Of a stretch of DNA of 64,000 nucleotides, positions 7,475-41,265 are shown piece by piece (position 1 is the first letter of the stretch; each line of letters opens with the position of its first letter). The notes beneath the pieces were generated by a model. That model saw only the letters and a list, made by a program, of their open reading frames with translations. It ran no database searches and had not been told where the DNA came from. The position numbers and the translations under genes were made by a program. The stretch covers positions 1-64,000 of the forward strand of contig JANXTY010000047.1 of assembly GCA_025352145.1 (NCBI GenBank), in the 5' to 3' direction. The stretch comes from Oxalobacteraceae bacterium. GTDB lineage: Bacteria; Pseudomonadota; Gammaproteobacteria; Burkholderiales; Burkholderiaceae_D.

Positions 7475-7660
7475 ATGAACAATAGTACAACCAATCCGGT
7501 AATTCCACCGCCACTACAGATTACTGAAAAGCGATTCTGTTACCACCACCAAGGCGAAGTAGCAGTCAACGCCGGTAGCTATGTAGTGCGGAACAATAGG
7601 CGGCGATGGATTTGCGCCCGTTGCCAGGATAATATCGCAAAAGCGCTACGTCAAAGCTAA
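7475..7660 (+). CDS. Small CxxC protein of unknown function
   Basis: A 61-residue basic protein. After a proline-rich start (NPVIPPPLQ) it carries RFCYHHQGEVA and, 30 residues later, WICARCQDN: one Cys-Tyr-His-His group and one Cys-x2-Cys pair, which could form a single zinc site. No membrane segment or signal peptide is present. I do not recognise a named family with certainty. A TTG at 7472 is in frame, but the ATG at 7475 is the natural start. It lies alone, 136 bases before tpiA, so co-transcription is possible but tpiA has its own promoter. Confidence 0.6.
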   Translation: MNNSTTNPVIPPPLQITEKRFCYHHQGEVAVNAGSYVVRNNRRRWICARCQDNIAKALRQS

Positions 7661-22521: not shown

Positions 22522-24021
22522 ATGAATAACATAAACTTAGCCTCCATCAATTTGGTTCCGGCCTATCCTGAGATTTTCTTGTTGATCGCGGCATGTGTGA
22601 TTTTGCTGATCGATATGTTTTTGTCGGATTCTAAACGGTTCATTACGTATGGATTGTCGCTTGCCGCGCTAGCAGGTTGTGCGGCTCTCAGCATGGTGGA
22701 CGTTCATTCGGGCGCTACGGCGTACACCTTTCACAACATGTTTGTATCTGACCCGATGTCGAGTTTGCTTAAGGTTCTTTCTTATCTGGCGGTAGGCCTG
22801 ACGCTTGTTTATTCACGCCAATACGTCAGCGATCGAGGCATGATCAGCGGCAAAATGGGTGGCGAGTTTTACGTGTTGGCATTGTTCGCGCTTTTGGGGC
22901 AGATGGTCATGATTTCGGGAAATAATTTCCTGAGCATTTATCTCGGCCTTGAGCTGATGTCCCTGTCCTTATACGCGTTGGTTGCCTTGCGTAGAGATCA
23001 TGCCATTTCGACAGAAGCGGCGATGAAATATTTTGTGTTGGGTGCGTTGGCTTCCGGTTTTCTTTTGTACGGAATCTCCATGTTATACGGTGCCACCGGC
23101 TCGCTCGATTTAACCCTGGTTGCAAAGGCGGCGGCCTCTGGTACGGTGAAGCCGATTGTGTTGATTTTTGGCTTGGTATTTTTGGTGGCGGGTCTTGCAT
23201 TTAAGTTAGGCGTCGTTCCTTTCCATATGTGGGTCCCTGATGTTTATCAGGGAGCACCTACTGCAGTTACTTTGTTGCTGGGCGGCGCACCTAAACTGGC
23301 AGCCTTTGCTATTTGTTTCCGATTGTTGGTGGAAGGCTTGTTTCCCATGGTGGAGCATTGGCAGCAAATGCTGGTTGTGCTTGCGGTATTGTCTATGGCC
23401 ATCGGAAATATCACGGCAATTGCACAAACCAATTTAAAACGAATGCTGGCGTACTCGACCATTTCGCAAATGGGTTTCGTGCTGCTTGGCTTGCTGTCCG
23501 GTCATGTTGCCGACAATTCGTTGGCAGCGCCGAGCGCCTATAGTTCTGCGATGTTTTACGTTATCACCTATGTCCTAACGACGCTGGGAACCTTCGGTGT
23601 CATCCTCCTGTTGTCTCGTGCAGGTTTTGAGGCGGAGAATCTGGAGGATATCAAAGGCTTGAATCAACGCAGCCCCTGGTTTGCCTTGGTGATGTTGATA
23701 TTGATGTTTTCCCTGGCGGGTATTCCGCCGATGATGGGGTTTTACGCCAAGCTTTCGGTACTGCAAGCAGTGCTGGGGACGGGCCAAGTGTGGTTGGCGG
23801 TGATTGCGGTGCTGTTTTCGCTTATTGGTGCTTTTTACTATTTGCGGGTAGTGAAATTGATGTACTTTGATGAACCGAATGATGTGTCGAAAATTGTCGT
23901 GAACTTTGATATGCGTATTGCCCTGAGCATGAATGGCGTTGCCGTGCTAGTGCTTGGATTAATGCCAGGGTCACTGATGAGCGCCTGTTTGACAGCGATC
24001 GTGAAGACCTTAGAGTCTTAA
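22522..24021 (+). CDS. nuoN: NADH-quinone oxidoreductase subunit N
   Basis: The third antiporter-like subunit of complex I, 499 residues. [16 protein letters not shown] carries the key Glu, [23 protein letters not shown] the key Lys region (in two halves), and [15 protein letters not shown] follows. Last of the 14 nuo genes. Confidence 0.97.
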
Positions 24022-24037
24022 TCGACACGGTTCTCCG

Positions 24038-24339
24038 GTGGATGTTTCCCTCTTAAGCTGGTTCTTTATTCTGGTGGCAATTTGGGGGGATTTGCCGTTC
24101 TGGAACGAGCGTATATTCGGCATAGTTTCTTTTAATCGTCCTCAAAAGCCATTCTGGTTGAGATTGTTAGAGTGATGCGTGTTGTGTGGATTGATAGGCT
24201 TGGTCGCTTATTATCTTGAGTTCAGTGAGGGAAGGGTGACTCCGCAAGGATGGGAATTTTACGCACTCACAGGATATTTTTTATTGTGCTTGCCTATCCT
24301 GGATTTGTATTTCGTTACCTTCGTAAAAAGCATGACTAA
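24038..24339 (+). pseudogene. Broken DUF2818 membrane protein gene
   Basis: A GTG at 24038 opens 45 codons resembling the N-terminus of DUF2818 proteins, which follow nuoN in Burkholderiales (WFFILVAIWGDLPFWNERIFG, then RPQKPFWLRLLE). A TGA at 24173 stops it. The same frame then resumes the family pattern (CGLIGLVAYYLE, TPQGWEFYALTGYF). After the T-rich run near 24275-24285 the match shifts by one base to LAYPGFVFRYLRKKHD and ends at TAA 24337. Two lesions, a nonsense codon and a one-base loss in a T run, make a real pseudogene more likely than a sequencing error. Confidence 0.8.
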
Positions 24340-24500
24340 TGTGATCCGTTCATTGTCCATCTCAGCACGACTGAGGTAACAACGAATAAGTGGAGGGACA
24401 TTGCGCACCACTGCTGGATTGGCAGGTATCGCAACGGTTGCGCAGAGTTCTCAGTTGGTAGCCGCGTACTCTTCAACATATTTTTCAGGATAAGCACACG

Positions 24501-25052
24501 ATGGATTCTCATTTGAAGGAAACCAGAATCGCAGGTGAAGTGGTCTATGAGGGCCACATCCTTAAAATTCAACGTGATTCTGTGTGTTTGCCCGACGGAA
24601 AAACTGCTGCGCGTGAATACATAAAGCATCCGGGTGCAGTTGTTATCCTTCCCCTCTTCGATGATGGCTCTGTACTTTTAGAGCGTCAATTTCGCTATCC
24701 CTTGAATCAGGTGTTCATCGAATTTCCAGCAGGGAAAATCGATGCAGGGGAAGACCCCCTGGAGTGTGCCAAGCGGGAACTAAGAGAAGAAACAGGTTAC
24801 ACCGCCAGTCATTGGCAGTTCGTTTGTACGATCCACAATGCCATCGCGTATTCCGATGAGCACCTTGAAATTTATCTTGCGCGTGGACTTACTGCTGGCC
24901 AGAGTCATTTGGATGAGGGGGAGTTCTTAGAGACATTTACTGCGCCAATTGCCGATGTTATCGCATGGATACGGGATGGAAAAATTACGGATGTGAAGAC
25001 GGTGATTGGCACATTTTGGGTGGAGAAAATTTTGTCAGGGAGTTGGCTGTAA
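24501..25052 (+). CDS. Nudix hydrolase, ADP-ribose pyrophosphatase type
   Basis: Hydrolyses nucleoside diphosphate-linked compounds, probably ADP-ribose or ADP-sugars. The Nudix box is complete at about residues 78-100: GKIDAGEDPLE then KRELREETGY. 183 residues with the N-terminal beta-rich dimerisation part typical of NudF-like enzymes (VYEGHILKIQRDSV). It follows the DUF2818 remnant as in related genomes. The stop overlaps the next gene by one base. Confidence 0.9.
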   Translation: MDSHLKETRIAGEVVYEGHILKIQRDSVCLPDGKTAAREYIKHPGAVVILPLFDDGSVLLERQFRYPLNQVFIEFPAGKIDAGEDPLECAKRELREETGYTASHWQFVCTIHNAIAYSDEHLEIYLARGLTAGQSHLDEGEFLETFTAPIADVIAWIRDGKITDVKTVIGTFWVEKILSGSWL

Positions 25053-35789: not shown

Positions 35790-35882
35790 CATGGTTAGGC
35801 CAGCTAGCGGATATAAGATGAGCGAGGTTCGATTTTCTGGAGGGGCAAGTTAATGTAGTTTACTCCCTTGTCAGGAGAATCT

Positions 35883-35975
35883 ATGAATCCCATTCCACGT
35901 CGTATTTATACTGAGGAATTCAAACGCGCAGCGATTAAGTTGGTCACTGAACAGAAGTTGAGCGAGATGCGGGTC
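35883..35975 (+). pseudogene. IS3-type transposase orfA remnant
   Basis: The N-terminal 30 codons (MNPIPRRIYTEEFKRAAIK, then LVTEQKLSE) match the start of IS3-family OrfA, a helix-turn-helix protein. The match ends after about 90 bases; the rest of the element is missing. The upstream bases, including GTCAGGAGAATCT before the ATG, look like the element's own leader. It lies in one continuous open frame (35868-36209) with the next remnant, which is a chance fusion. Confidence 0.7.
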
Positions 35976-36032
35976 GCGGGTAGGGACGACGGTTATCCCT
36001 GCCCACTCATTTCCACGCAACGAAACCATCCC

Positions 36033-36231
36033 ATGTCCCGCACTCAACGTCTGCTTGATCTGATTCAGATCGAGCGGGAACCGGGTTATCTGCTCCGTCC
36101 CGGATTTATGCTGCCGCCGCTCCTGTTTTCGGAAGAAGAAAGCGAAGCGCTCGTACTCGGTGTGGGCCACGGCAACGACCTGAAACCTCAAGCTCGCTTA
36201 TCAAGGTGACGCGGCGCTCGGCGCCGAATAA
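36033..36231 (+). pseudogene. YafY/WYL-type transcription regulator remnant
   Basis: MSRTQRLLDLIQ at 36033 is the start of YafY-like HTH regulators. It jumps directly to REPGYLLRPGFMLPPLLF and SEEESEALVLGV, skipping about 38 residues that normally hold the recognition helix. Beyond that the frame shifts: LKLAYQGDAALGAE in another frame resembles the next family segment and ends at 36231. An internal deletion plus at least one frameshift and the lack of the WYL domain show that the gene is dead. Confidence 0.7.
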
Positions 36232-38263: not shown

Positions 38264-39240
38264 TCATGTCCGGCACAACCGGATTTCCCCCTACCAAAGC
38301 ATCGCATTCGTTGCAATCGCCTTGTCTACATTGCCGTATCCGCTTTGATGACCGTTATTTTAAAAAGCTAAAGTGATTATCGTACTGCGCGAGTGGCTCC
38401 ATCGGCAGCCACTCTTGCGGGACAAAAGGTGAATCGACTTTAACTTCGTATCCATGCCGCCATGCGATCTTGGCGTAGATGACCGCCGAGGTGGAAATTA
38501 AATCTTTCGTGTAGCCGCCGTTCTCCTCATACAGCGCACCCAATATTTTGGGTGTCACCATTTGCTGTAAAACCTCTTCCATTTTGGCAATGTCGCCATG
38601 AGCGAGGGCAAGGTAAAAATGGTGTGCTGTTAGGCGTCGCTTCAGGCCACTGTCTTTGGGTGAATCACTGATTATTCTCTCACAACGCTCAATCAGCCGT
38701 TGCCATTCACCGCGCAAAGCAAGAACTCCTTGATATGCCCAGAAATCCCAAGTCTTATGACTTTCCACTCGCTTCATGTCGTAACGTTGGTCGAGGCGGG
38801 AGAACCAATCAATCAGCGCTTCATTATTTGATATTAGCGGTCTTAATAATTCTAGAAACGCCGCGCCAGGATTTATCGTGCTACCCCCTCCCATCTTATA
38901 GTACATTTGCAGGAGTTTTGCAGATACGTGCCACCATTGCCGCATCGCATTTAAGTCGTGGTTTTCAAACCATGCCAGCATGGCATTTGCTTCAGAATAG
39001 TCTGACAAACTCGTTACGCATGCTCTAGGATCACCCTGATTGTGCTCAATATTATATATAGGGCGATCAATATTTTTTCCATCACGATGCCCCCTAATAT
39101 GTGCGATACGATGGATTTGTTTCTCGGTATACATATTTGTATTCATTTAAATATCTCTCTTAAAACGAACTTGCGAGGCGAACCATCGATAATGCCCCAG
39201 TATTGCGGTCGATGCCTATTACCCCTTTTATTAAGGTGCC
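38251..39240 (-). repeat. Tandem cassette copy A (toxin tail, Imm49-like gene, terminator)
   Basis: Aligns with 39691-40680 at a constant spacing of 1,440 bases at both ends. It covers the 3' end of the toxin-tail gene, all of the Imm49-like gene, and the downstream sequence including the half-site of the terminator and the stretch TGTCCGGCACAAC.GGATTTCC. Confidence 0.85.
38355..39146 (-). CDS. Imm49-like immunity protein, copy A
   Basis: A 263-residue soluble protein, mostly helical by composition. The C-terminal block (AVIYAKIAWRHGYEVKVDSP then PQEWLPMEPL) and the HHFYLALAHGD helix fit the Imm49 family of polymorphic-toxin immunity proteins, recognised from memory. Such proteins bind and block a partner toxin. 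It starts 13 bases after the stop of the toxin-tail frame and ends in its own terminator, so the pair forms a two-gene unit. Compared with copy B its last 68 residues differ at only six positions while the first half is far more divergent. Confidence 0.75.
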   Translation of the reverse strand: MNTNMYTEKQIHRIAHIRGHRDGKNIDRPIYNIEHNQGDPRACVTSLSDYSEANAMLAWFENHDLNAMRQWWHVSAKLLQMYYKMGGGSTINPGAAFLELLRPLISNNEALIDWFSRLDQRYDMKRVESHKTWDFWAYQGVLALRGEWQRLIERCERIISDSPKDSGLKRRLTAHHFYLALAHGDIAKMEEVLQQMVTPKILGALYEENGGYTKDLISTSAVIYAKIAWRHGYEVKVDSPFVPQEWLPMEPLAQYDNHFSFLK

Positions 39241-39396
39241 ACTTTCTCGCGCTGCATCCACAGCTTTATATGCGGCGGAATTTTCGTCCAAGCTAGCAAG
39301 TACTTTGCGCACCCAAGCATCTGACATCTGGACTACTCCTTCCGCATTTACTGACAATCTAGTCGCCCCATTGACAATCTGCTTGGACTCAAACAA
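39160..39396 (-). CDS. Toxin-tail fragment, copy A (3' part, frameshifted from 39389-39649)
   Basis: A 78-residue frame, starting MFESKQIVNGATRLSV and ending VIGIDRNTGALSMVRLASSF. The last 30 or so residues recur in the copy B tail at 40600-40740. No catalytic motif is recognised. Its start overlaps the end of the next upstream frame by eight bases, and a TTTG tandem repeat at the junction suggests that the two were one gene. Directly followed by the Imm49-like gene, as expected for the C-terminal end of a polymorphic toxin; the toxin role is inferred from position. Confidence 0.55.
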   Translation of the reverse strand: MFESKQIVNGATRLSVNAEGVVQMSDAWVRKVLASLDENSAAYKAVDAARESGTLIKGVIGIDRNTGALSMVRLASSF

Positions 39397-39649
39397 ATAA
39401 ACCTATCGGCATACTGAAATAATCAGGAAGTGTTTTTACCAGCACCGATCCAACCGCGCCTGCCGCTGGCTTAAGTAACTCCCCGCCAGCCAAAAACAAT
39501 GCTAATTCCCGTGGATCACCAGGCAAAAGAAGTTGCAATATCGTGTGTCGAATGCCAGCGCTCATAAGCGCAGCATCGTCGCCTTTACGCACGGCTTCCA
39601 TCGCTTCGATATCAATGGATTCCATTGAACCTTTTTTGAAGTCATGCAT
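39389..39649 (-). CDS. Toxin-tail fragment, copy A (5' part)
   Basis: A frame of 86 residues from the ATG at 39649 (or 78 from 39625, which has AAGG just upstream). It reads MESIDIEAMEAVRKGDDAAL, then RHTILQLLLPGDPREL and a hydrophobic Gly/Ala stretch AAGAVGSVLVKTL. The open frame runs back to 39757, but those first codons lie on the terminator of copy B and are not real. There is no signal or trafficking domain, so this is at most the C-terminal end of a larger effector. Not recognised as a known toxin family. Confidence 0.5.
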   Translation of the reverse strand: MHDFKKGSMESIDIEAMEAVRKGDDAALMSAGIRHTILQLLLPGDPRELALFLAGGELLKPAAGAVGSVLVKTLPDYFSMPIGLFV

Positions 39650-39667
39650 GAAGTAAACTGCATCCGC

Positions 39668-39702
39668 AAAAAAAAGGAACAAGAACACCATTTTTGTTCC
39701 TT
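39668..39702 (-). terminator. Terminator after Imm49-like copy B
   Basis: AAGGAACAA pairs with TTGTTCCTT, extended by three weaker pairs, with a 5-base loop, followed on the minus strand by eight T residues. It is a diverged copy of the hairpin at 38224-38263. Confidence 0.85.
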
Positions 39703-40680
39703 CACCCCTCGCAATGTCCGGCACAACAGGATTTCCCTTACAAAGCGCTTCATTCATTGCAAGTGCCTTCTGTGCGCTTACGCATTTGCTTTGATTGCCG
39801 TTACTTTAAAAAACTAAAGTAATTATCGTATTGCGCGAGTGGCTCCATCTGGAGCCACTCCTGCGGGATAAAAGGCGAATCCACTTTGACCTCGTATCCA
39901 TGCCGCCATGCTATCTTGGCGTAAATGACCGCCGAGGTGGAAATTAAATCTTGCGTGAAGCCGCCGTTCTCCTCATACAGCGCACGCAATATTTTGGGTG
40001 TCACCATTTCCCGCAAAATCTCTTCCATTTTAAGAGTATCGCCATGGGCGAGGGCAAGGTAGAAATGATGCGCTAATAAGCGTCGCTGCTGGGCACCTTT
40101 GGGTGGATCGTTAATTACTTTCTCGCAGCGCTCGATCAGCCGGGGCCATTCGCCACGCAGTGCCAGAGCGCCCGAATAAGCCCAGAAATCACCGGTCTTA
40201 TGACTTTCCACTCGCTTCATGTCATAGGTTTGATCGTAGTGGGCGAACCAGTCAATCAGCGCATCATTATTCGATAATAATGGCGCCAATAGCCTCAGAA
40301 GCTTATTGCCGCCGTTGAGTATGTCCGGCTGTATCTGGTACCACATCTGATCCAGTTTCGCAGATACATACCACCATTGGCGCATCGTATTTAAGTCGTG
40401 GCTTTCAAACCATGCAAGCATGGCTTTCCCCTTTGCAAAGGAAGACAATCCCATCGCGCATGCTATAGGATCACCTTGGTTATTTACAATATTACTGACG
40501 GCGTTAAGAGAGGGGCCTTCATCAACGTGCGATTTAACATGTGCGATACGCTTGATTTGTTTATCAGAGTGGATCATGGTATTCATTTAAATATCTTTCT
40601 TAAAACGAACTTGCGAGGCGAACCATCGTTAATGCCCCAGTATTGCGGTCAACGCCGATCACGCCTTTGACTAAAGTATT
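39691..40680 (-). repeat. Tandem cassette copy B (toxin tail, Imm49-like gene, terminator)
   Basis: Second copy of the unit at 38251-39240. The 3' tails, the Imm49-like genes, the 13-base gap with AAGAAAGATATTTAA before the immunity start, and the toxin-tail ends all correspond. Confidence 0.85.
39801..40586 (-). CDS. Imm49-like immunity protein, copy B
   Basis: A 261-residue paralogue of copy A in the same orientation. It keeps MRQWWYVSAKL, YDMKRVESHKT, HHFYLALAHGD and the C-terminal block AVIYAKIAWRHGYEVKVD. The first 110 residues differ strongly from copy A (for example LNAVSNIVNNQGDPIAC against RPIYNIEHNQGDPRAC), which is the pattern expected if the N-terminal half decides toxin specificity. 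It follows the short tail gene by 13 bases and ends in its own terminator. Confidence 0.75.
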   Translation of the reverse strand: MNTMIHSDKQIKRIAHVKSHVDEGPSLNAVSNIVNNQGDPIACAMGLSSFAKGKAMLAWFESHDLNTMRQWWYVSAKLDQMWYQIQPDILNGGNKLLRLLAPLLSNNDALIDWFAHYDQTYDMKRVESHKTGDFWAYSGALALRGEWPRLIERCEKVINDPPKGAQQRRLLAHHFYLALAHGDTLKMEEILREMVTPKILRALYEENGGFTQDLISTSAVIYAKIAWRHGYEVKVDSPFIPQEWLQMEPLAQYDNYFSFLK

Positions 40681-40921: not shown

Positions 40922-41217
40922 CACACCACCTTCTTTCCGCTTTGGATATCTGGCAAGGTCAAACCGCCAGTGTATTGGCAGTGCGCCATCTCTCGCAGCC
41001 TGCCGGTCCAACGTCCCGCCCATGCCAGTCCGGTCGATTCTGCGATTGCGCCACATCGATCAAAGGTGTGCGGATCATCCCATTGCGCTTTGCCATTGAC
41101 GATCGGCACAAAGTCGAACGCGCATCCGTAGTTATGGAAAGATTGTCCCGCTTGGGCATTGGTGACGATTTTTCCTAATGTGGTGCGCCCTTGCGCATAG
41201 AGCAAAGTTCTTACCAA
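40921..41217 (-). pseudogene. M15 peptidase (phage endolysin type), N-terminally truncated
   Basis: About 95 residues of a VanY/CwlK-like L-alanyl-D-glutamate or D-Ala-D-Ala peptidase. The zinc site is complete: QSFHNYGCAFDFVPI supplies a His and an Asp, and RLREMAHCQYTGG the catalytic Glu and third ligand His. The protein starts abruptly at LLYAQGRTT, which is mid-domain in relatives; about 40-50 N-terminal residues are missing, and the frame opens with a TTG. Homologues cut peptidoglycan for phage lysis. It begins 57 bases from the 3' end of tRNA-Arg. Confidence 0.75.
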
Positions 41218-41233
41218 TAGTCCAAAAACCAGA

Positions 41234-41265
41234 AAGGGGTTACAAGCCTAAACTTGTAACCCCTT
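41234..41265 (-). terminator. Hairpin terminator after tRNA-Arg
   Basis: A perfect 13-base-pair stem (AAGGGGTTACAAG with CTTGTAACCCCTT) and 6-base loop, nine bases beyond the tRNA 3' end on the minus strand, followed by TTTCTGGTTTTTGG. Confidence 0.75.

Follow-up and report, generated by a model that had tools for sequence, protein, structure and literature searches.

A probable, fairly recent DUF2818 pseudogene behind nuoN in an Oxalobacteraceae genome

DUF2818 genes in Burkholderiales

The closest counterparts of the locus described here are the intact DUF2818 genes (Pfam PF10993) of other Burkholderiales, which it resembles in sequence family and in its place directly behind nuoN. The literature searched contained no paper naming DUF2818 or PF10993 and nothing on a DUF gene downstream of nuoN in Betaproteobacteria, and on supernumerary complex I parts in Burkholderiales it gave off-topic papers only. 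Among 100 sampled genomes of the order, DUF2818 scored over the cut-off in 60, and in all 60 no more than 500 bp separated its match from that of NuoN; in most of the intact loci that were fetched, a NUDIX match also follows nuoN at a distance of up to 0.75 kb. Weak matches below the cut-off, found in many genomes inside open reading frames (ORFs) of mostly 530–790 codons, were set aside. The window analysed here is the whole stretch of 64,000 nucleotides from contig JANXTY010000047.1 of an Oxalobacteraceae bacterium (assembly GCA_025352145.1), and its genome is counted among the 60. A single open frame is found in 58 of these genomes, the other two being the window genome and G016; unlike the intact copies, that of the window is interrupted by a stop codon and a shift of frame, and it is one residue short.

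NuoN itself was matched at an E-value of 1e-100 or better in 97 of the 100 genomes, and the three without it (G050, G077, and G088) all fall among the 40 that lack DUF2818, leaving 37 in which NuoN is present and DUF2818 does not reach the cut-off. Some of the genomes without DUF2818 are incomplete, and an absence there may reflect missing sequence, save at loci whose DNA downstream of nuoN was inspected directly. The gene was found in 44 of 60 sampled genomes of the window's family, as against 16 of 40 in the other families of the order, and in 268 of 294 genomes of a wider sample of the window's family, restricted to those at least 90% complete. The statement of an earlier note on this DNA, that the gene follows the nuo operon in most Burkholderiales, is thus borne out for the window's own family and for the position beside nuoN, but not for the order's other families.

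The same note had proposed a survey of DUF2818 integrity in relatives, which was carried out and which revealed broken copies in G016 and G139 and a locus without any remnant in G021. Among 80 named nuoN loci, 66 carried an intact DUF2818 according to an automatic rule and 13 had no such gene; the remaining locus, L112, was called broken by the rule and was reset to intact after its frame had been read as open with an insertion. This variant, located at 7496–8014 of L112, carries its insertion near model position 30 and is open throughout. Insertion variants near model position 30 also occur in G262, G302, and G317 (loci L131–L133 and L138–L140), where the two parts of the match lie 168–177 bp apart and are both reported in open frames of equal length, 156–172 codons.

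Anatomy of the remnant and its surroundings

In the window, the DUF2818 remnant lies between nuoN and a NUDIX hydrolase gene, immediately adjacent to the former, and 483 bp separate the nuoN and NUDIX matches. The features of the locus are as follows.

22522–24021, plus strand: nuoN, intact; ends 16 bp before the GTG of the putative pseudogene
24038–24172, plus strand: DUF2818 piece 1 (model positions 2–44); likely GTG start; matched by profile and Pfam; model positions 15–17 altered
24173–24175, plus strand: in-frame TGA at codon 46, seen in translation
24176–24282, plus strand: DUF2818 piece 2 (model position 47 to about 78–84); same frame as piece 1; end approximate; 28.8 bits with Pfam
24277–24282, plus strand: run of six T (T6) within the frame-change stretch; the lesion is not placeable to the base
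24283–24339, plus strand: DUF2818 piece 3 (model positions about 79–99) in the other frame; ended by TAA at 24337–24339; start approximate
24501–25052, plus strand: NUDIX hydrolase gene, intact; the next gene downstream of the remnant

The frame that opens with the GTG at 24038 runs into the TGA at 24173–24175, exactly at the codon given in the earlier note. With a profile based on 16 relatives whose copy is intact, the window sequence being excluded, three collinear pieces in two frames were recovered, namely model positions 2–44 at 24014–24172 (E 1e-9), positions 47–84 at 24176–24376 in the same frame (E 1e-8), and positions 79–99 at 24229–24336 in the frame one base back (E 6e-9). Judged from the sequence, three collinear pieces at such E-values are not a product of chance. 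With PF10993, pieces 1 and 2 each pass the cut-off of 25 bits on their own (27.7 and 28.8 bits, respectively), and the score becomes 67.8 bits when the TGA is read through. The sequence is otherwise collinear with DUF2818, as had been claimed, and the claim that two lesions inactivate the gene has support, the collinear pieces being split by a TGA and a change of frame that leave no single open frame of about 100 codons such as the intact relatives possess. The second lesion had been described as the loss of one base in a T run; a net change of one base does occur where pieces 2 and 3 overlap in the model, and the T6 run falls inside that stretch, but the exact base cannot be placed.

The surrounding operon is preserved, in that all 14 nuo genes are open with family matches running nearly end to end, and for 13 of them the curated score is passed with one or more NCBIfam models. 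The exception, nuoA, is matched over model positions 7–121 of 122 and falls below its curated score, and its listed ORF starts too early. DUF2818 is a single-copy gene in this genome; a second copy was sought elsewhere and none was found, leaving no other intact copy.

Damage is not confined to the two breaks. At model column 15, where each of the 94 intact rows covering it has a residue (95 rows were looked at), the window copy has a deletion, while the A found at column 16 in 94 of 94 intact rows is replaced by G, and the N found at column 17 in 91 of 94 is replaced by D. The deletion and the changes at these two strongly conserved neighbouring columns are absent from the earlier note. Thirty positions are at least 90% conserved among 67 intact rows; 5 of these 30 are changed in the window copy, compared with a median of 1 and a highest value of 6 among the intact rows; taken alone, this count is within the intact range, and the decay beyond the breaks is modest. 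Moreover, the identity of the window copy to its relatives is on average 0.104 below the expectation based on NuoN, the lowest of 69 rows, followed by the broken copy of G016 (0.099 below) and by that of L038, a near relative whose gene is intact (0.065 below). The 67 intact rows used in the divergence and codon-position tests were chosen by hand, by locus number, from the window's side of the NuoN tree, and both tests omit the window's piece 2 from model column 79 onward.

Differences by codon position in the window copy still resemble those of a coding gene and show no shift, and an old pseudogene is rejected on this ground. The excess divergence and the changed invariant residue would fit relaxed selection on the window copy, yet the codon-position pattern is unshifted; because that pattern is still coding-like, the inactivation is probably recent. 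Part of the divergence may predate it, since the intact copy of L038 also scores low, and constraint in the clade was perhaps already looser before the gene was inactivated.

Origin of the breaks and history of loss

The reading held with high confidence is that the window's DUF2818 is a genuine, fairly recent pseudogene, in which a loss that recurs in Burkholderiales has been caught midway. The gene normally found behind nuoN encodes DUF2818, a small membrane protein that this lineage would have stopped needing; the stop, the frame change, and the missense changes would then have accumulated with nothing to oppose them, the nuo operon meanwhile remaining intact. The window would represent a middle stage of this repeated loss and G021 its end stage, at which no remnant is left. 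From its sequence, the window copy would yield no working product; its loss was presumably neutral, and the lesions are taken to be real in the organism and not just in the assembly. By itself, the window case is an ordinary one: the gene is apparently dispensable and has been lost many times. The earlier proposal that complex I works without DUF2818 is reasonable in view of the open nuo genes, but the situation is not special to this lineage, given the 37 sampled genomes with NuoN and no DUF2818.

It is improbable that either break, or both, arose in an intact DUF2818 through a sequencing or assembly error. Such an error would be in keeping with the draft state of the genome (74 contigs, 97.47% completeness, 0.1% contamination), with the position of one break near the T6 run, and with the assembly sequence being the sole basis for both breaks, but the two breaks are of unlike kinds and lie within 300 bp. 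Of the 144 homopolymer runs in the window with a length of at least six bases, 101 lie in its 51 long open ORFs, whose frames are intact, and run-length errors thus do not seem widespread; the nuo genes are likewise open. Furthermore, two erroneous breaks would leave unexplained the unusual divergence, the deletion, and residue changes that no intact row shows, and the nearest relative found, G021, has no DUF2818. The genus of the window genome is represented by this one genome in the collection, with no second strain.

Less probable still is the production of a full DUF2818 through stop read-through combined with ribosomal or transcriptional slippage, for which a coding-like codon-position pattern and the T run at the frame change might be cited. 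Two separate recoding events would be required, and the read-through raised in the earlier note has no support: it would leave the later frame change uncured, TGA is an ordinary stop that ends 21 of the 51 long ORFs of the window (reassignment of this stop is ruled out), strongly conserved residues are changed, and DUF2818 is in a single open frame in 58 of the 60 genomes where it reaches the cut-off. It is similarly hard to credit that short pieces still work alone, either as the first 45 residues or as a 66-residue product from the GTG at 24179, for ORFs exist for both, but, judged by the model of an intact relative, piece 1 covers helix one and only the beginning of helix two, piece 2 goes out of frame ahead of the conserved PG..RYL end, and the other broken copies seen break at other places.

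A genuine loss can be followed in the window's relatives. G021 is the closest of those found (NuoN 83% identical, genome 86% complete) and shares with the window the order of nuoN and NUDIX; it differs in that the two matches are 70 bp apart instead of 483 bp and that a six-frame profile search found no DUF2818 remnant between them. G021 belongs to the 15 sampled genomes of the same family that have NuoN and lack DUF2818, and in none of the 16 nuoN loci fetched from these did the search give a remnant; the NUDIX match follows 13–141 bp behind the NuoN match in 13 of the loci, that of G021 included, and the other three have no NUDIX match in the stretch. The NuoN tree comprised 126 rows and was built by a quick method with SH-aLRT support only, leaving out the duplicates L008 and L014 and the re-fetched window loci L001 and L032. 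Within it, a starred group (95) unites the window, where DUF2818 is broken, with G021, where it is absent, and L038, where it is intact; the tree does not fix the branching order inside this group. The tree requires 13 changes of DUF2818 presence, of which at least 8 are forced by starred branches, and it cannot separate gain from loss; we infer that most of these changes were losses because the place behind nuoN is constant.

Other broken copies have been encountered in the survey. DUF2818 is disrupted by two frame changes in G016 and by one frame change in G139, a single-contig genome; both copies share with that of the window the family, the place, and a broken frame, and differ from it in their breaks, G016 lying on another branch of the NuoN tree and G139 not being in the tree. 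In G136, the middle of the gene is missing and the match to NuoN, too, falls into two parts (locus L135, G136:C50, around 643–738); this genome measures 1.7 Mb, against 4.7–5.9 Mb in the other genus members listed, which suggests genome reduction. The number of broken copies is a lower bound, as the re-examination covered, among the matches listed for the wider sample of the family, seven low-scoring genomes, with G327 among the low scorers left out, and one further genome without a match. DUF2818 is also missing from G041 (genus g42) and G125 (genus g4), whereas the other members listed in both genera have it; loss can accordingly be recent, and G125, in about 610 contigs, may be merely incomplete.

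Possible role of the protein and minor observations

An intact relative (L006, 1486–1788; model m797c6c8277f3) was modelled with good confidence, at a mean pLDDT of 89.8 and a pTM of 0.79, as four helices at residues 3–23, 40–65, 73–86, and 88–100. A 55-row profile gave no solved homologue by sequence at E-values up to 1, two intact relatives gave no NCBIfam family at E-values up to 1, and a fold search with the model gave no match at 0.001 or better. In a second-look fold comparison, the best Z score was 6.3, among chains of unlike kinds, and was taken as no identification; its better rows include 6wb9_6 (Z 5.6) and 7tut_9 (Z 5.1), which we take to be EMC6-type membrane insertion partners, but this resemblance is weak, falls below the level that shows kinship, and is no more than a lead. 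Since DUF2818, wherever it occurs in the sampled genomes, stands beside nuoN and has nevertheless been lost many times, it might tentatively be regarded as a conditional complex I accessory, for example a helper that inserts or assembles the membrane arm and is lost repeatedly when some condition is absent; this proposal is considered unlikely. The pattern of loss suggests that natural lineages whose nuo operon is intact can do without DUF2818, and the repeated changes of presence provide matched genomes that can be compared to ask what its role is.

Elsewhere in the window, two ORFs of the Imm49 immunity protein family lie 654 bp apart on the minus strand at 38355–40586, and the stretches beside them look alike by eye; the pair is possibly the remains of a toxin–immunity array. 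Between the Imm49 genes and a tRNA-Arg, a short minus-strand ORF resembling a D-alanyl-D-alanine carboxypeptidase occupies 40924–41247 (Peptidase_M15_4, E 8.9e-10). On the plus strand, the start region of a 116-codon ORF at 35859–36206 weakly matches a transposase helix-turn-helix (E 0.007, under the cut-off), and the ORF is perhaps an insertion-sequence remnant.
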